Shown here: positions 1,344 through 18,411 of the stretch, piece after piece
Position numbering within the stretch: the first letter of the stretch is position 1
Layout of the letters: each line of letters begins with the position of its first letter
Virus record (IMG/VR): IMGVR_UViG_3300027971_000238
Coordinates: 1-22,692 of that record
Source of the DNA: a virus
Length of the DNA: 22,692 bases
Strand: one strand, 5' to 3'
Made by a program: the position numbers and the translations under genes
The notes under the pieces: generated by a model
Seen by the model: only the letters and a program-made list of their open reading frames with translations
The model's database searches: none
What the model was told of the DNA's origin: nothing

Positions 1344-2060
1344 CTTTATTGTTATCTTATAGGTTCTTTATCCTATAATTCATACAGTTATTCTTCCTGT
1401 ATGTTCAGACTATATCTTTATTTTGATAATATGTAAAAATATTTTTATAAAACATTTTTAATTCATTTAAAGAAGCATTATTTTTCATTGTATTAGCTTT
1501 CATGCTAATTATTCTACAATTACTTTTTAAATATCCTAATGAATTATCTATTCTATCTATAGTAGGACTATTTTCATAATTTCCTTTAACTCCTATAAAT
1601 AAAGGAATTTCTAAAATAGGGCAATATATAGGTATAACTAACTCAGATTCTAATAAATTAAATTCTAAATTTTTTTTTATAGCTCTATCTTTTGTCCTTT
1701 TCCATAAATTATGAATATAATTTCTTCTAAAAGATTCTTTTTTTTCTTGTTTTAACTTTTCTACATATTCAGGATTTTCACGTCTTTTTAATCTATATGC
1801 TTTTTGTGTAAGCTTATATTTTTCAGTTTTCCTGTATTTTTTCATTGCCTCATTCATGAATACTCTAATTTATAATTTGGAGTAAACATAATAGTAATTT
1901 ATTTAATATCAAAATATCTTGCTTTCGTGGGTATTTCTTCTGTTCTAGAATACTTTACCTAGTCGTTGAACCTTCTATATATCCCTATATAGCTTGGCTG
2001 CTGATTACCATTTCAGGCTTCCAGACAATTAACAAGATTTAGCCAGGGCAGTGATTGTTC
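1344..2060 (-). ncRNA. Group I self-splicing intron in DNA polymerase A
   Basis: The 717-nt intron interrupts the polymerase between motif B and motif C. The 5' exon ends CCAGGGT, which pairs perfectly with the internal guide GCCCTGG (2043-2049) and ends in the required U-G pair: P1 with an 11-base loop. The bases just before the guide, ATCACT, pair with the start of exon 2 (AGTGGT), which is P10 and fixes the 3' splice site. The intron ends in G. An R-like segment GTTCAACGACTAG (about 1958-1970) and an S-like segment AAGATATAGTCTGAAC (about 1403-1418) pair GACTA with TAGTC and GTTCA with TGAAC, as in the P3/P7 core. An HNH endonuclease gene lies inside. The translation of exon 1 runs only 15 codons into the intron. 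Confidence 0.9.
1405..1857 (-). CDS. Intron-encoded HNH homing endonuclease
   Basis: This 150-residue protein has a very basic N-terminal half and an HNH-type nuclease core: the CPILEIPL segment, then SPTIDRIDNSLGY with the DRID motif near residue 100, then LKSNCRIISMKANTMKN. This is the arrangement of phage endonuclease VII-like HNH enzymes, in which the nuclease cuts intron-less alleles and spreads the intron. It lies wholly inside the group I intron. Its last codons (KDIV and TGA) are the same bases as the conserved S-like segment of the intron core, so the reading frame has been extended into ribozyme sequence. It is probably translated from the unspliced precursor. Confidence 0.88.
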   Translation of the reverse strand: MNEAMKKYRKTEKYKLTQKAYRLKRRENPEYVEKLKQEKKESFRRNYIHNLWKRTKDRAIKKNLEFNLLESELVIPIYCPILEIPLFIGVKGNYENSPTIDRIDNSLGYLKSNCRIISMKANTMKNNASLNELKMFYKNIFTYYQNKDIV

Positions 2061-3710
2061 ACCCTGGATAGGTGAATTCATAGAATTTCTTTCTATTTGT
2101 CCTTCAATAATTAATATTTGTTTCCATAAAAATTTAGATTCAGTAGAACCTTTTTCTACAAATTGTACTTGTTGTCTTAGTTCTCTAGCTGTTTCAATTT
2201 CAGGATAAAATCTTCTTCTTTTACAAGGAGCAAAAGTTAAAGAATATCCATTTAATTTACCAAATTTACCTTGTTGTTCTAACCATTTATTTAATTTAGG
2301 AAAAGATTTACCATACTCTTTAAATAATTGATCAGCTTCTTCTAAACTAATTTGTAAAGTATCTGCTAACTTAGGAGGACCCATGCCATAAGGCTTGCCA
2401 AAGTTTATAGTTTTAGCCTTATTTCTTAATTCTTTGTCAGCTTTAGTAATAGTTTTTTTAAACATCATACTACCAGCATAACAATGTAAATCCTCTCCTC
2501 TGTTTAGTACATCAATAAATCCTTCTTCACCAGAACCATCAGCCATAAGATTTAACTCTTGACCTGAGTAGTCAATAGATACCCATAAATATCCTGGTCT
2601 AGCTTCAAAACAATTTCTAAATATGTTTTTAGCTGGAATATTCTGTAAATTAGGAGCATTATCTTCTTTAGAGCCACTAGATACTCTGCCGGTATTTAAT
2701 ACTTGCCAAAAATTTGTATGTACTCTATTAGTAGCAGGATTAATATAATTTAGAAATCCTTCACCATAAGTACTAATAATCTTAGCTTTCTCTCTATAGT
2801 CTTGTAACTTACTAAAGAATGGATGTTTATTAACTAACTTAGTCAACTCCCGATCATTAGTAGAATCTATATTATAACCTAAAGCTATACACATATTCTT
2901 TATCTGTAAAGGAGAAGCATAATTAATATTTAGTTCACGTTCTTCAAAGCCAAATAAATTACCTTGTACATATTCAGGTACATACTTAGATAATTTAGAT
3001 TCTTCTTTTACAATTTTATCTAAATCTATTTGAATATTATCTAATTCTTGTTTAAAAGTTTTAGTATTATGTATCCATTTATCTTTATTTAAAATCATAC
3101 CATTATACTCAATATCAGCTAAAGCTTTAAATGCTTCATTCTCTAAATTAATACAATAAAGTAAATCTTTTTTTTCAGCTTCTTGATGTTGTAATCTAGC
3201 AACTTTAGATAAATAGGTAACATCTTTAGCTGCATAAACTATTTGAGTATGAGTAAATGGTTCTGAATTTGTGTTAATAAAACTACTTCTAGCATTTTTA
3301 TCTAGATCAATATCTAAATATCTTTTTACTATTTTATCTAAACCATAACCATATTTCTCATAACCACAATATAATACACATTCAGCTAACATTGTATCCC
3401 AACATTTATCTAAAATAATACCTGCATGTTTTAATATTTTATAATCAAATTTTAAATTTTGTCCTATAATTAATTTAGACTCAATTAATTCTTTGAATAA
3501 TAAAACATTAATTACTCTACAGTCAATTATAAATTGATTATTATTATCACCTAATTGTAAACAAAGTAATTTAGCTGTATGAGGGTCTTTACCAGTAGTT
3601 TCTGTATCTAATTGAATACTTCTAAAATCTTTAAAATAATTTAAACATTCTTGTACAGATACTTCTTCAAATTCTTCAAATAAAGAATTACATCCTATTA
3701 TTTTTATCAT
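2061..3710 (-). CDS. polA: DNA polymerase family A, exon 1 (exonuclease and polymerase motifs A, B)
   Basis: This is the replicative family A polymerase, with 550 residues in this exon. The N-terminal 3'-5' exonuclease shows DTETTG (residues 35-40), IGQNLKFD (82-89) and the Yx3D motif YAAKD (159-163). Polymerase motif A is VSIDYSGQELN with Asp380. The O-helix motif B is RNKAKTINFGKPYG, with Arg429, Lys433, Phe437 and Tyr441 at the canonical spacing. The exon ends NSPIQG at 2061, where the group I intron begins. Without splicing the frame runs on to a TGA at 2013, adding 15 non-homologous residues and losing motif C. The gene follows a structured leader (3736-3858). It is the main phage replication enzyme. 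Confidence 0.95.
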
Positions 3711-9346: not shown

Positions 9347-9662
9347 TGTTTAAATCTTTAATTATTTTTAATAACTCATCTTCTGAAATCTCCTCTATTC
9401 CATCAGCAATCAAATCTCGGTCTGTTGTTAGGATGATTTTCCTCCAATAATCAGGTAACATTTCAGTTCCATTATGTTTAGATATTATACCACTTGGACT
9501 ACAATACCAATCTCCTTCTTTAACTTCTTCATCAGAAGTGATGTAGATGTTTTGACCATTGATAGTATTTTTACTAAAATTCAAATCACATAAAACTAAA
9601 CCTGAATTTCCTAAATGTAACCTACTTGGTTTATCTGTTGGTAATATGTGTATGTTTTTCAT
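9339..9662 (-). CDS. Conserved small Bacteroidota-phage protein
   Basis: I start this gene at the ATG at 9662 (MKNIHILPTDKPSRLHLG); a Met six codons upstream lies within the preceding gene. The protein has 107 residues with INGQNIYITSDEEVKEGDWY in the middle and RKIILTTDRDLIADGIEEI near the end. From memory, proteins opening MKNIHILPTDKPSRL are very common in Bacteroidota phages and have no known function. It shares the KIILTT...DG block with the gene at 7950-8255. Confidence 0.85.
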   Translation of the reverse strand: MKNIHILPTDKPSRLHLGNSGLVLCDLNFSKNTINGQNIYITSDEEVKEGDWYCSPSGIISKHNGTEMLPDYWRKIILTTDRDLIADGIEEISEDELLKIIKDLNNV

Positions 9663-9663
9663 T

Positions 9664-10035
9664 TTATTTATTTTTAACAATTTCTATTAATTTATTTAGA
9701 CAAGCAAGTTCTGCTTCTTCGTAGGTATGGAAATATGCTGCATATTGAGTTGAAGTATGTTCACCTGATAACACCCAACAAAATGTGGATTTATTACCTA
9801 ATTCCATTGTTACCCAAGAATACAATCCATAATTCTCTCTAAACCATTTAAATGCTTGTGAGTAAGTTGGTGCTGAAATATAACTACCTAATTTAAATTC
9901 TGAGTTGTATTTTTTTGGTGCTGAATAGTCATTTGAGAATTTACCATAAACAGTGTAATATGATATACAAGGTTCATCAAATCCTAATTCTTTTAAAGCT
10001 AATGATGGTTCGTAAGGAGTAAATTCTTTAGTCAT
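9664..10035 (-). CDS. Conserved Bacteroidota-phage protein, 123 aa
   Basis: The N-terminus reads TPYEPSLALKELGFDEPCIS. The centre has SAPTYSQAFKWFRENYGLYSW and the C-terminus YEEAELACLNKLIEIV. These three blocks define a family that I recognise as common in Bacteroidota phages and mobile elements, with no assigned function. It is predicted soluble, with alpha and beta parts. Its stop abuts the next start. Confidence 0.85.
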   Translation of the reverse strand: MTKEFTPYEPSLALKELGFDEPCISYYTVYGKFSNDYSAPKKYNSEFKLGSYISAPTYSQAFKWFRENYGLYSWVTMELGNKSTFCWVLSGEHTSTQYAAYFHTYEEAELACLNKLIEIVKNK

Positions 10036-10545: not shown

Positions 10546-11403
10546 TTAAAATATATATCTTATTGTATTCCAGTTAATTATTTTATTATGTAATTCAGTC
10601 CATTGATTAATATAATCACGTTTTAAATCATGTTTATATCTAATATTATCTCCACCATATTGTGAGATTTTAGATTCTTGATTTTCTGGAGTCCATAATA
10701 ATTCTTCACCTGTTAATTCAGCATTTACATTATAATGATGTTTGTGTTTATTATGTGTAAGAAATATAACTTCACATTTAACTATATCTTTATAATCTAC
10801 ATATGTATTAACCATGTGAAATAAATCTTCATAATCTTCTAACCAATTATCATAAACAACAACAGGACTAAAGTTTATGTGTACATCATAACCAGCATCT
10901 ATAAAAGCATCAATAGCTTTGATTCTATCAATTATTTTAGATGTGTTAGGTTCTAACTTATCTGAGATATTTTGAGGCATTAAACTGAATCTAATGCGTA
11001 TTTTACCTTCAGGATTATAGTTTATTAGATTTACATTAACATACTTAGTAGCAAATGAACCCATAGCTATTGGATGTTGTTTAAAGAAATCAAATATCTT
11101 TTCCCATTTATGATATTTAGCATGTAAAGCAAAATCTTCATTACAAGATATATCATAAGTAATATAATCTGAATGAGTTTGATTAGGTTTATCTACATTA
11201 ATAAACATAGAATGATTATTAATTTCAGTTAATATATCCATAGTATTTTTTGCTATATCTAAACCTACAGGTTTATGTCTTTTCATATAACAATAAGTAC
11301 AATTATATAAACAACCATGACCAAAGCTAGGACTAATAAAATCAGTACTACGACCTGATGGTCTAATTATCATAGATTTTCTTTTAACTTTTTCAATCAT
11401 CAT
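10546..11403 (-). CDS. splB: Radical SAM, spore photoproduct lyase-like DNA repair enzyme
   Basis: This 285-residue protein has a radical-SAM cluster motif CxxxCxxC in GCLYNCTYCYM (Cys31, Cys35, Cys38), which binds the 4Fe-4S centre that cleaves S-adenosylmethionine. The overall pattern (FGHGCLYNC, later MGSFATKYVN, IRIRFSLMPQ, GYDVHINFSPVVVYDNW) is that of spore photoproduct lyase (SplB). That family repairs the UV-made thymine dimer 5-thyminyl-5,6-dihydrothymine. Cys87 in YDISCNEDFALH aligns by context with the catalytic H-donor Cys of SPL (EASCTSD-like). It is somewhat shorter than bacterial SPLs. It overlaps the upstream gene as ATGA. The substrate in a phage is inferred and could be another photoproduct. 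Confidence 0.85.
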   Translation of the reverse strand: MMIEKVKRKSMIIRPSGRSTDFISPSFGHGCLYNCTYCYMKRHKPVGLDIAKNTMDILTEINNHSMFINVDKPNQTHSDYITYDISCNEDFALHAKYHKWEKIFDFFKQHPIAMGSFATKYVNVNLINYNPEGKIRIRFSLMPQNISDKLEPNTSKIIDRIKAIDAFIDAGYDVHINFSPVVVYDNWLEDYEDLFHMVNTYVDYKDIVKCEVIFLTHNKHKHHYNVNAELTGEELLWTPENQESKISQYGGDNIRYKHDLKRDYINQWTELHNKIINWNTIRYIF

Positions 11404-11664: not shown

Positions 11665-11671
11665 ATAATTG

Positions 11672-12058
11672 TGGAGCTGGAGGGAATTGAACCCTCGTAT
11701 TCCCTAAAATACTTTATAAATTTCTACAAGTTTAGTTAGTTATTTCTACAACTAACAAAATATTGACTTTTAGCTATTATTCAAGTGAATGTCAACAAGT
11801 TCTCTAGTTTTATTTACAGTTAAACTTCTGTTTGCTAATCTAGGCAGCTAACTCTAGTTCCTGTTCAGCTACAGGCGTTAAATTAATAACTTTTGCAGAA
11901 GCTTTTCTAGAAGGGTACAAATCTGCAATTGTACCAACTTCATTTGTAATAGTGTTTCCATCTATACTCACCAACTAATATTTTAATAGCACACGTTAGT
12001 AGGCAATGCTATACTTGCTTAATATAATCTATGATAGGGAGCAAATCCTGGCAGCCCC
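11672..12058 (-). ncRNA. ssrA: Phage-encoded tmRNA (transfer-messenger RNA)
   Basis: This 387-nt one-piece tmRNA rescues stalled ribosomes and tags the nascent peptide for degradation. The 5' end GGGGCTG pairs with 3' CAGCTCC over 7 bp, including the G3-U70 pair that directs alanine charging; the discriminator is A and CCA is not encoded. The T-arm is GAGGG-TTCAATT-CCCTC. The tag frame ends AEQELELAA (codons at 11843-11869) followed by TAG, matching the usual LAA ending. The resume codon is not certain. Upstream, GGTACAA/TTGTACC forms a helix of the first pseudoknot region. GTTAGTT/AACTAAC and other helices follow the tag. It lies between small phage genes just after a terminator. Confidence 0.93.
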
Positions 12059-16714: not shown

Positions 16715-16742
16715 ATTATTACAACTTGCCAGTTGCTTTTTA

Positions 16743-16750
16743 AATTGTTA
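16743..16750 (-). repeat. TAACAATT upstream motif
   Basis: Minus-strand context AATTACTAACAATTTAAAAA, at the end of the long structured non-coding interval and 29 bases before the ATG at 16714. Confidence 0.5.
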
Positions 16751-16760
16751 GTAATTAATT

Positions 16761-17674
16761 TGTGTTTGTTTTTATTTATCATCGAAGATATACTCTACAA
16801 TTGTAAGTAATAAAATAACAGGGATGCTTTTTACCTGTAATCAATAGTCTCTTTATTTACTATCATTTGCCTTATTTTAACACATTATTTAGACATTTTA
16901 TCCACCCATCAAGGGATGAGTGTGTGTATAATTAATTACCTTAAATTATTATATTGTAGTTAATACAATAATCTAAGTACTTGCTGATTAGGCTTTGTTT
17001 TCTAGCTTGTGCTCATAGAGGTTAAATAAGTTTGCAACCTTATAAAACATATTTGGATAAGGAAATCTACTCCTTGTAAGAACATTTATTATATTAAAAG
17101 CGAATCAAGCTCTGAATATATTTTCAACAATCAATTCTTACTTTAGATTGTTTAGGTTAGTAACCACCATTTTAATAATAATCCCTCTGCACTCAGTTGT
17201 AAGGTAGGTAGTCATTTGATCCTTATCTCAACTGCTCACCCTTGGGAAGTGAGTTATGGTGCATTAATAATATTCCTTTGTATTTAGTTGTAATAATTTG
17301 TAACCCTACACGCCTCTTACTGTAGGTAATAAATCAGACTTTATATTATTTACATCACATAAATAATAGAGCTGAAGGCGTTTCATAACTTATTACACAA
17401 ATTTGATTAGAATTTGTTTATATTACAACTAATTACATTGGAAAAAAAATAGTTACTATCTTAACTTCAAAGCCTTCTAAAAATTCTAGTTTTTAGTAGT
17501 GTAACTTCTTTTACGGCTCCATTAAGATTAGGTTTATTACCTCATTTATTCATATAAATGAAAAGGTTTTTTACAGGGATAAGCTGCTTAAATTCATAGG
17601 TTTTCTCCTACTATTCTTTTATCAAAAGACACAATATTTTTAAAGTTCACCCTTGATATTATCGCAGGTGAACT
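16761..17674 (-). ncRNA. Large structured non-coding RNA, family unknown
   Basis: Over 900 nt without a convincing gene. Stems in plus coordinates: ACAGG/CCTGT 16818-16838; CACCCATC/GATGAGTG 16903-16922; ATTGTA/TACAAT 16953-16969; AGGTT/AACCT 17019-17040; AAGGA/TCCTT 17059-17075; CAATC/GATTG 17128-17150; TGCAC/GTGCA 17188-17263 enclosing CAGTTG/CAACTG and the hairpin 17235-17253; a 12-bp stem 17284-17295 with 17421-17432 enclosing a pseudoknot (CCTACA/TGTAGG with CGCCT/AGGCG) and an 8-bp hairpin 17345-17367; CTAAAAA/TTTTTAG 17477-17496; AGTTCACC/GGTGAACT 17644-17674. At 16903-16922 and 17235-17253 the minus strand gives T-G wobbles where the plus gives C-A mismatches, so the RNA is probably leftward. 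Confidence 0.65.
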
Positions 17675-17692
17675 CAAATATTTGTAATATGT

Positions 17693-17996: not shown

Positions 17997-18411
17997 TTTA
18001 AATTGTTAATAATTCACGTTTATATGTTTTAACTCTTGCATCTCTATTTCAAGATTGTCCTATGGGAGTTATGGTATATTAAACCAAATACATTATTGTT
18101 TTGCGACTGATGTATTAGCAGACCGTTTACCATCTTATAGTTTTAAGTCATAAGATATGTTGGACTTTATTATTAACTAATTAGCTATTAATTAGTTTAT
18201 GTTGTGAAAATTTGAGAGTTTTTGAGAGTGAGAATAGCAGAAGTAGAGTATTAGTCTTCATTTATTAACTAAAACTAACACTCTAACTGCTTGACTTTTA
18301 CTTCATTAAGTCTAAGTTACCCTATTACTATGATTTACTTATAGTCTGATAATTGATAGAGAAGGATTTTTACAACAGTTAATCCTTAAAATCTGTTACA
18401 TTGGCTTAGTG
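17997..18411 (-). ncRNA. Pseudoknot-rich non-coding RNA, family unknown
   Basis: A gene-free interval with three H-type pseudoknots (plus coordinates). First: AAGGATT/AATCCTT (18362-18368, 18381-18387) interleaved with AACAG/CTGTT (18374-18378, 18393-18397). Second: AGAGTG/CACTCT (18225-18230, 18279-18284) with AGCAG/CTGCT (18236-18240, 18287-18291) and an internal hairpin. Third: ATCTTAT/ATAAGAT (18132-18138, 18150-18156) with AAGTC/GACTT (18145-18149, 18163-18167). The first and third share the 7-bp plus 5-bp design. There is also a 9-bp hairpin near 18176-18198. A promoter-like box at 18419-18449 would start it near 18411. No tag reading frame or tRNA-like ends are seen, so it is not a tmRNA. 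Confidence 0.65.
18001..18008 (-). repeat. TAACAATT upstream motif
   Basis: Minus-strand context AATTATTAACAATTTAAATA, at the 3' edge of the pseudoknot-rich interval and 15 bases before the ATG at 17986. Confidence 0.58.

Follow-up and report, generated by a model that had tools for sequence, protein, structure and literature searches.

The window, i.e. the whole stretch of DNA analysed here, is an IMG/VR record of 22,692 bases. A terminase large subunit gene of crAss type begins at its right end (phrog_6681, E 6e-39) and the best named relatives are Crassvirales, with identities of up to 48 %; both results bear out the crAss-like phage origin assumed in an earlier note on this DNA. A Family-A DNA polymerase, a GroES-like protein and a tmRNA also fit Crassvirales. 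Genes are read leftwards to the left of about 18.8 kb and rightwards to the right of 19.4 kb, so the gene-free interval studied here (16715-17692) belongs to the opening part of the early arm, which is read leftwards. An empty-site comparison with the related locus L005, which is too diverged for breakpoints to be placed, identified the interval and a 97-aa gene as accessory.

Several other features of the window were recorded. The phage-encoded tmRNA (11669-12058, minus strand; ARAGORN and Rfam) has a 28-residue tag, and one is also annotated in the early arm of the named crAssphage cr115_1. At 1405-3710 (minus strand), the Family-A DNA polymerase ORF is cut short at 565 aa, and after it comes a small ORF resembling an HNH-type endonuclease. 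This is possibly a split gene or an intron; no Rfam intron match was found at 1405-3710. A radical SAM protein resembling spore photoproduct lyase (PF20903, E 1e-24) is encoded at 10546-11403 (minus strand). A non-coding block of ~60-70 nt at 18093-18165 is near-identical in L144, whose flanks otherwise differ.

The gene-free interval

The interval contains no ORF that reaches 60 aa, and the longest one (27 aa) is below the level of about 50 aa seen in shuffled sequences. The interval is thus gene-free, as the earlier note had described it, and the protein-coding signal which that note had named as evidence against its reading is absent. When folding was compared with shuffles over 953 nt, the minus strand was clearly better (z -4.85) than the plus strand (z -2.05). 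Most 150-nt sub-windows were unremarkable. The exception was 16865-17014 (minus strand, z -4.1), a strong local hairpin region including a 16-bp AT-rich stem around 16930-16970 that was not found in other loci.

At least ten complementary helices had been claimed for the interval, a count that is weak when taken alone: there are 10 perfect helices of at least 8 bp within 200 nt compared with 6.6 in shuffled sequences, of which 3 in 30 have at least as many, and two of at least 9 bp compared with 2.0. The 12-bp stem formed by 17284-17295 and 17421-17432 is exact, and an equal length was reached in 1 of 30 shuffles. The pseudoknot domain at 17284-17432 had no match in other contigs. Judged on the window alone, the claim of structure is suggestive. 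The search against all Rfam models that the note had proposed (cmscan) returned nothing beyond chance-level matches for the interval or for the element described below, at the gathering score or at E ≤ 10.

A conserved element and its relatives

A total of 80 loci with related terminases were collected. When the interval was compared with them using BLAST, one short, strongly conserved block (17223-17270) was observed, in eight loci. An exact degenerate pattern of this block was used to search viral and bacterial contigs; at least 119 further viral contigs contained the core, and there was one match among 11.3 million bacterial contigs. Of 129 collected core matches, 114 share one geometry, with exactly equal linkers in 110 of these. 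BLAST searches of 50,697 phage records with the whole interval and with the core gave zero matches, and no relatives were found through the two flanking small proteins.

The conserved unit, hereafter E, is ~99 nt long (17175-17273, minus strand) and is read leftwards, with the three-way junction at 17188-17263 inside it. This junction, already noticed in the earlier note, is real and represents the conserved part of the interval; outside E, the interval showed no conservation with other E loci. The window copy scored 79.6 bits (E 4e-21) with covariance model R2 and 59.7 bits with model R1, which lacks P1. In a set of 14 crAss-like or related reference records, R2 gave weak matches at most (best 20.8 bits, Bohxovirus). 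The literature searched, of which few subscription papers formed part, contained no description of such ribozymes in crAss-like phages.

The positions 17275-17475 (minus strand) are a candidate for a decayed second copy of E. A 21-nt block at 17275 shares 17 of 21 positions with the E block (41 shuffled windows reached at most 16), and the 12-bp stem described above would enclose an insert of ~125 nt. Model R1 did not report this region, and the resemblance is suggestive only.

These results also bear on the size of the RNA. The earlier note had proposed one uncharacterised structured RNA of ~0.9 kb and named GOLLD and ROOL as the obvious comparison. The structured RNA is supported; the single unit of ~0.9 kb is not supported. 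GOLLD and ROOL are likewise structured RNAs with phage links, but they are much larger than E. A single large ornate RNA of this type across about 0.9 kb would agree with the minus-strand folding over 953 nt and with the 12-bp long-range stem. However, no Rfam family matches, most sub-windows fold no better than shuffles, conservation with other E loci does not extend to the rest of the interval, and E recurs alone amid unrelated flanks, as one to four separate copies per phage. We therefore regard this reading as highly improbable.

Structure and covariation of the element

In the RNA sense, the plan of E is P1-U^AA-P2 (UGCAY)-CAYAA-P4 (C NNNN)-UUC(C/A)CAAGG-P4'-P5 (20-160 nt insert)-A-P2' (RUGCA)-GAG(G/U)G-P1'. 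In the window copy, where all parts are on the minus strand, the 5' arm of P1 (17267-17272) pairs, imperfectly, with the 3' arm at 17177-17182. The 5' side of L1 is U-A-A (17264-17266), with a predicted cut between U17266 and A17265, at the place of the N^A site of twister (PMC5408937, PMC6154101). It is followed by the 5' arm of P2 (UGCAC, 17259-17263), which pairs with GUGCA at 17188-17192, and by the junction C-A-Y-A-A (17254-17258), which is invariant except for Y and takes the place of the GC dinucleotide of twister T2; its letters are part of the search pattern. The P4 hairpin (17235-17253) consists of CUCAC/GUGAG and the loop L4, UUCCCAAGG. Within L4, the CCC strand of the T1 pseudoknot (17244-17246) pairs with 17183-17185. 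The P5 stem, CAGUUG/CAACUG, with its variable insert, occupies 17194-17234; the insert is identical in L157 and near-identical in L134. The 3' side of L1 is GAGGG (17183-17187), which supplies the T1 partner GGG and a G at the place of the catalytic guanine of twister. In L141 (9881-10014, minus strand), the P4 loop of an E copy apparently carries a long insertion after CCCUUGGGA.

Covariation among relatives, which the note had suggested as a check, was tested for E against shuffles, using model A1 (59 sequences, P1 left out) and model A2 (66 sequences, P1 included). In A1, 97.7 % of cells are paired, 0 of 500 shuffles reached the observed values on any measure, and sliding the partners abolishes the signal. 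In A2, 91.6 % of cells are paired with double changes in 21 of 28 pairs, again with 0 of 500 shuffles on all measures. Copies were selected using the pairing of P2 and P5, while P1, T1 and the free P4 positions played no part. P2, whose pairing was part of the selection, is paired in 99.7 % of cells in A2, and C-G/U-A double changes occur in two of its five pairs. P4 is paired in 100 % of cells with double changes in four of five pairs.

In the case of P1 alone, 105 double-change cells were observed compared with 58 in shuffles (score 0.54 compared with 0.23; 0 of 500 shuffles). The signal is confined to a single register (z 8-12), and P1 pairs in only 67 % of cells. T1 was analysed in a relaxed set of 99 copies in which any triplet was allowed: CCC/GGG was found in 74, CAC/GUG in 18 and CCA/UGG in 4, and the pairing was broken in 3. 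T1 is thus fully paired in 96 of 99 copies, with three compensating types.

The search pattern fixed AA, the P2 5' arm, the junction and L4, so that the invariance of these parts exists partly by construction. Two conserved features lie outside the pattern, namely the U at -1 (63 of 66 relatives) and GAG(G/U)G. In the RNA sense, G.U cells outnumber A.C cells in P4 (8:0), P5 (15:3) and P1 (44:25), and this bias indicates selection acting on the RNA of one strand. The leftward reading proposed in the earlier note is supported by this asymmetry in relatives together with covariation and synteny.

Comparison with twister and other ribozymes

A twister used in circular-RNA vectors has the sequence CTGTA-G-AA-CAC-TGCCAAT-GCCGG-TCCCAAG-CCCGG-ATAAAA-GTG-GAGGG-TACAG (PMC12236469); its division into stems is that of the present analysis, following reviews. 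In twister, P1, P2 and P4 are essential and P0, P3 and P5 are optional, the U-A cleavage site adjoins P1, T1 consists of three Watson-Crick pairs between L4 and L1, and T2 is formed from a conserved GC in L2 (PMC5408937, PMC6154101). P1 is conserved yet dispensable, at times with just two pairs (PMC5408937, PMC6154101).

When E was compared with twister (RF03160 twister-P1 and RF02684 twister-P5), the order P1-L1-P2-(P4 hairpin)-P2'-L1-P1' was the same. Both have N^AA on the 5' side of L1, GAGGG adjoining P1 on its 3' side, the loop UCCCAAG, T1 as CCC/GGG between L4 and L1, and the same P1 register. E thus shares with twister a P1 abutting the cleavage-site loop, P2 and P4, T1 and the conserved nucleotides of L1 and L4. 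The differences are also clear. The canonical GC of L2 for T2 is absent from E, where L2 is C-A-Y-A-A in all copies with an invariant C-A, leaving room for no more than a single C-G pair with L4. L4 of E contains one extra U and one extra G. P5, found in 1 % of known twisters, is universal in E as a stem-loop of very variable length that is joined directly to P4 and has a conserved base sequence. The Rfam models RF03160 and RF02684 did not match at E ≤ 10 in 11 E-bearing records, and cmscan, which alone covered twister-P3, gave no twister match. As the T2 feature is lacking, we describe E as twister-like and keep it out of the twister family. With its topology, register and core letters, E is very probably a twister-like self-cleaving ribozyme located between small early-arm genes of a crAss-like phage.

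E could instead be a structural, non-catalytic RNA, such as an exonuclease-blocking or protein-binding junction and pseudoknot that stabilises early mRNAs, its likeness to twister being convergent or its activity lost. A three-way junction with a pseudoknot to its 3' flank, in an intergenic and co-directional position, would suit such a role, as would the lack of the canonical T2 GC and the base of P5, CAGUUGUAAUA, which is conserved without obvious reason and beyond catalytic need. However, both active-site segments of L1, N^AA and GAGGG, agree letter for letter with twister and are in register with P1, and a known ribozyme class, hatchet, is found in the same tracts. We consider a purely structural RNA unlikely.

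Twister-sister resembles E in its multi-stem junction and, in known members, in similar P4 loop letters. It differs in having no such pseudoknot and in being cut on the other loop strand (PMC5408937), whereas T1 of E covaries.

Other candidates were rejected. Phage Y RNA with a TROVE/Ro protein was ruled out as PF05731 was found in 0 of 31 records, and an integron attC-like site, an IS200/605-type hairpin, hammerhead, pistol, HDV-like ribozymes and exonuclease-resistant RNA were dropped by eye.

Genomic context, copy number and insert exchange

Among 27 long E-bearing records, 23 contain the crAss terminase and the remaining four are partial contigs of 51-61 kb. E is directed away from the terminase in every one of these 23. 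The next downstream gene is co-directional with E in 73 of 79 loci and the previous gene in 68 of 79. Each phage carries one to four copies, and clusters of two to four same-strand copies within about 1 kb are frequent.

A conserved junction upstream of co-directional genes might be taken for a ligand-binding riboswitch or leader that controls the next gene. Such a function is very improbable: the distance from E to the next ORF can be as short as tens of nt or exceed a thousand, the neighbour genes vary, up to four copies cluster, and no expression platform was seen.

The P5 insert is shared at a level of more than 80 % by 23 pairs of loci. Ten of these pairs represent one locus seen twice, both flanks are unrelated in the other 13, and in none is only one flank related. 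The inserts of the 13 pairs, which include the window with L157 and L134, are ~95-100 % identical. The pairs L086/L147 and L098/L165 share inserts and differ in P4 with compensation, which makes recombination within conserved stems a simpler reading than movement of the whole unit.

The 13 pairs could also be explained by a mobile or recombination element that acts at the DNA level through a single-stranded DNA hairpin. A related reading is a promoter hairpin for the virion RNA polymerase, by which the early genes of Crassvirales are transcribed (PMC10136315). Against both stand the excess of G.U over A.C, the match of T1 and P1 to an RNA enzyme, and the P4 differences in the two insert-sharing pairs, so that the whole unit does not move intact. 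We consider a DNA-level function very unlikely.

Hatchet and other modules in the same tracts

Hatchet (RF02678) is the one Rfam-named ribozyme in the tracts that contain E, and was found in 4 of 50 E-bearing records; it is not present in the window. Hatchets are an established class of self-cleaving RNA; in crAss-like phages they share early-arm tracts with E, from which they differ in sequence and fold. In the three comparable records (L083, L172 and G009), hatchet is on the same strand as E and 0.8-1.1 kb upstream of it. In 2015, hatchet was unknown from any completely sequenced organism (PMC4604424). In cr115_1 (L226), hatchets are located at 9624-9747 and 11800-11938, corresponding to 38623-38746 and 40799-40937 of NC_055898.1 (plus strand). 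They score 103.5 and 69.6 bits with Rfam, lie in the first gaps of the early arm near a tRNA and a tmRNA, and point away from the terminase.

Other conserved modules surround E in changing combinations and nearly always share its strand. We found no Rfam name for any of those described here. Module BA (19 copies; L112, L166, L130, L176 and others) consists of UACUCUCAUCCAAGCAGG and CAAGGGUUGCAACCUUGUGAGAGUA separated by an insert, is on the same strand as E, and shows compensatory changes in its closing stem (CUCA/UGAG, CUUG/CAAG and CUUA/UAAG). Module C (CUUUAACC..UCUAUCCAGUAAGCUGCUGGCG; about 20 loci, including L109, L134, L186 and L192) is on the same strand and often directly upstream of E. 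Module FD (L135, L141, L086 and L201) is a short and extremely conserved two-hairpin motif, CCCUAGAAGCGGGGUU-AAGGU-AGAUAUAAUGCGAAGUGAAACU-ACCUU. Modules G (ACAAUAGAAAGGACGUGAUAUUCGUCGUAUUCCUAAGCAUGAAGACAAACUGCUUA) and I (GGUCUGAUUUGUCGAUACAAGUCUUUCGACUGAUAUGUUGUUGG) are conserved in L033, L036, L040, L105 and L197.

We tentatively suggest, with some doubt, that the early-arm gaps of Crassvirales are mosaic tracts of E, hatchet and at least five unnamed same-strand modules, some of them perhaps new ribozymes, which exchange inserts and which together would form a host-independent, RNA-only system for the processing of early transcripts.

Proposed mechanism and significance

By analogy with twister, whose topology, register and core letters it shares, E RNA would cut itself between U17266 and A17265, leaving a 2',3'-cyclic phosphate on the upstream product and a 5'-hydroxyl on the downstream one. 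In this way E could process early or middle transcripts that are polycistronic, with no need for host nucleases, the early ones being those that the virion RNA polymerase would make. That self-cleavage serves such processing is a real possibility, to which we give slightly less than even weight. The downstream message would then start with a 5'-OH and a compact fold, and may be protected from 5'-end-dependent decay. A partner ligase that would circularise the cleaved RNA was also sought. RtcB was found in 0 of 25 records and an RNA ligase in 1 of 25, and such a partnership was rejected.

Self-cleaving ribozymes are found widely among bacteria and phages, where no biological role is known for them. 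A twister-like class that crAss-like phages carry at a fixed position, along with the hatchets of a named Crassvirales genome, would provide a defined genomic setting for such ribozymes, and this setting suggests a job for those of phages, namely the cutting of early mRNAs. It would also mean that the Rfam twister models miss a well-supported subclass. Judged by the likeness of E to twister, crAss-like phages, which are very common, probably use RNA enzymes missed by current databases to cleave their own early messages.
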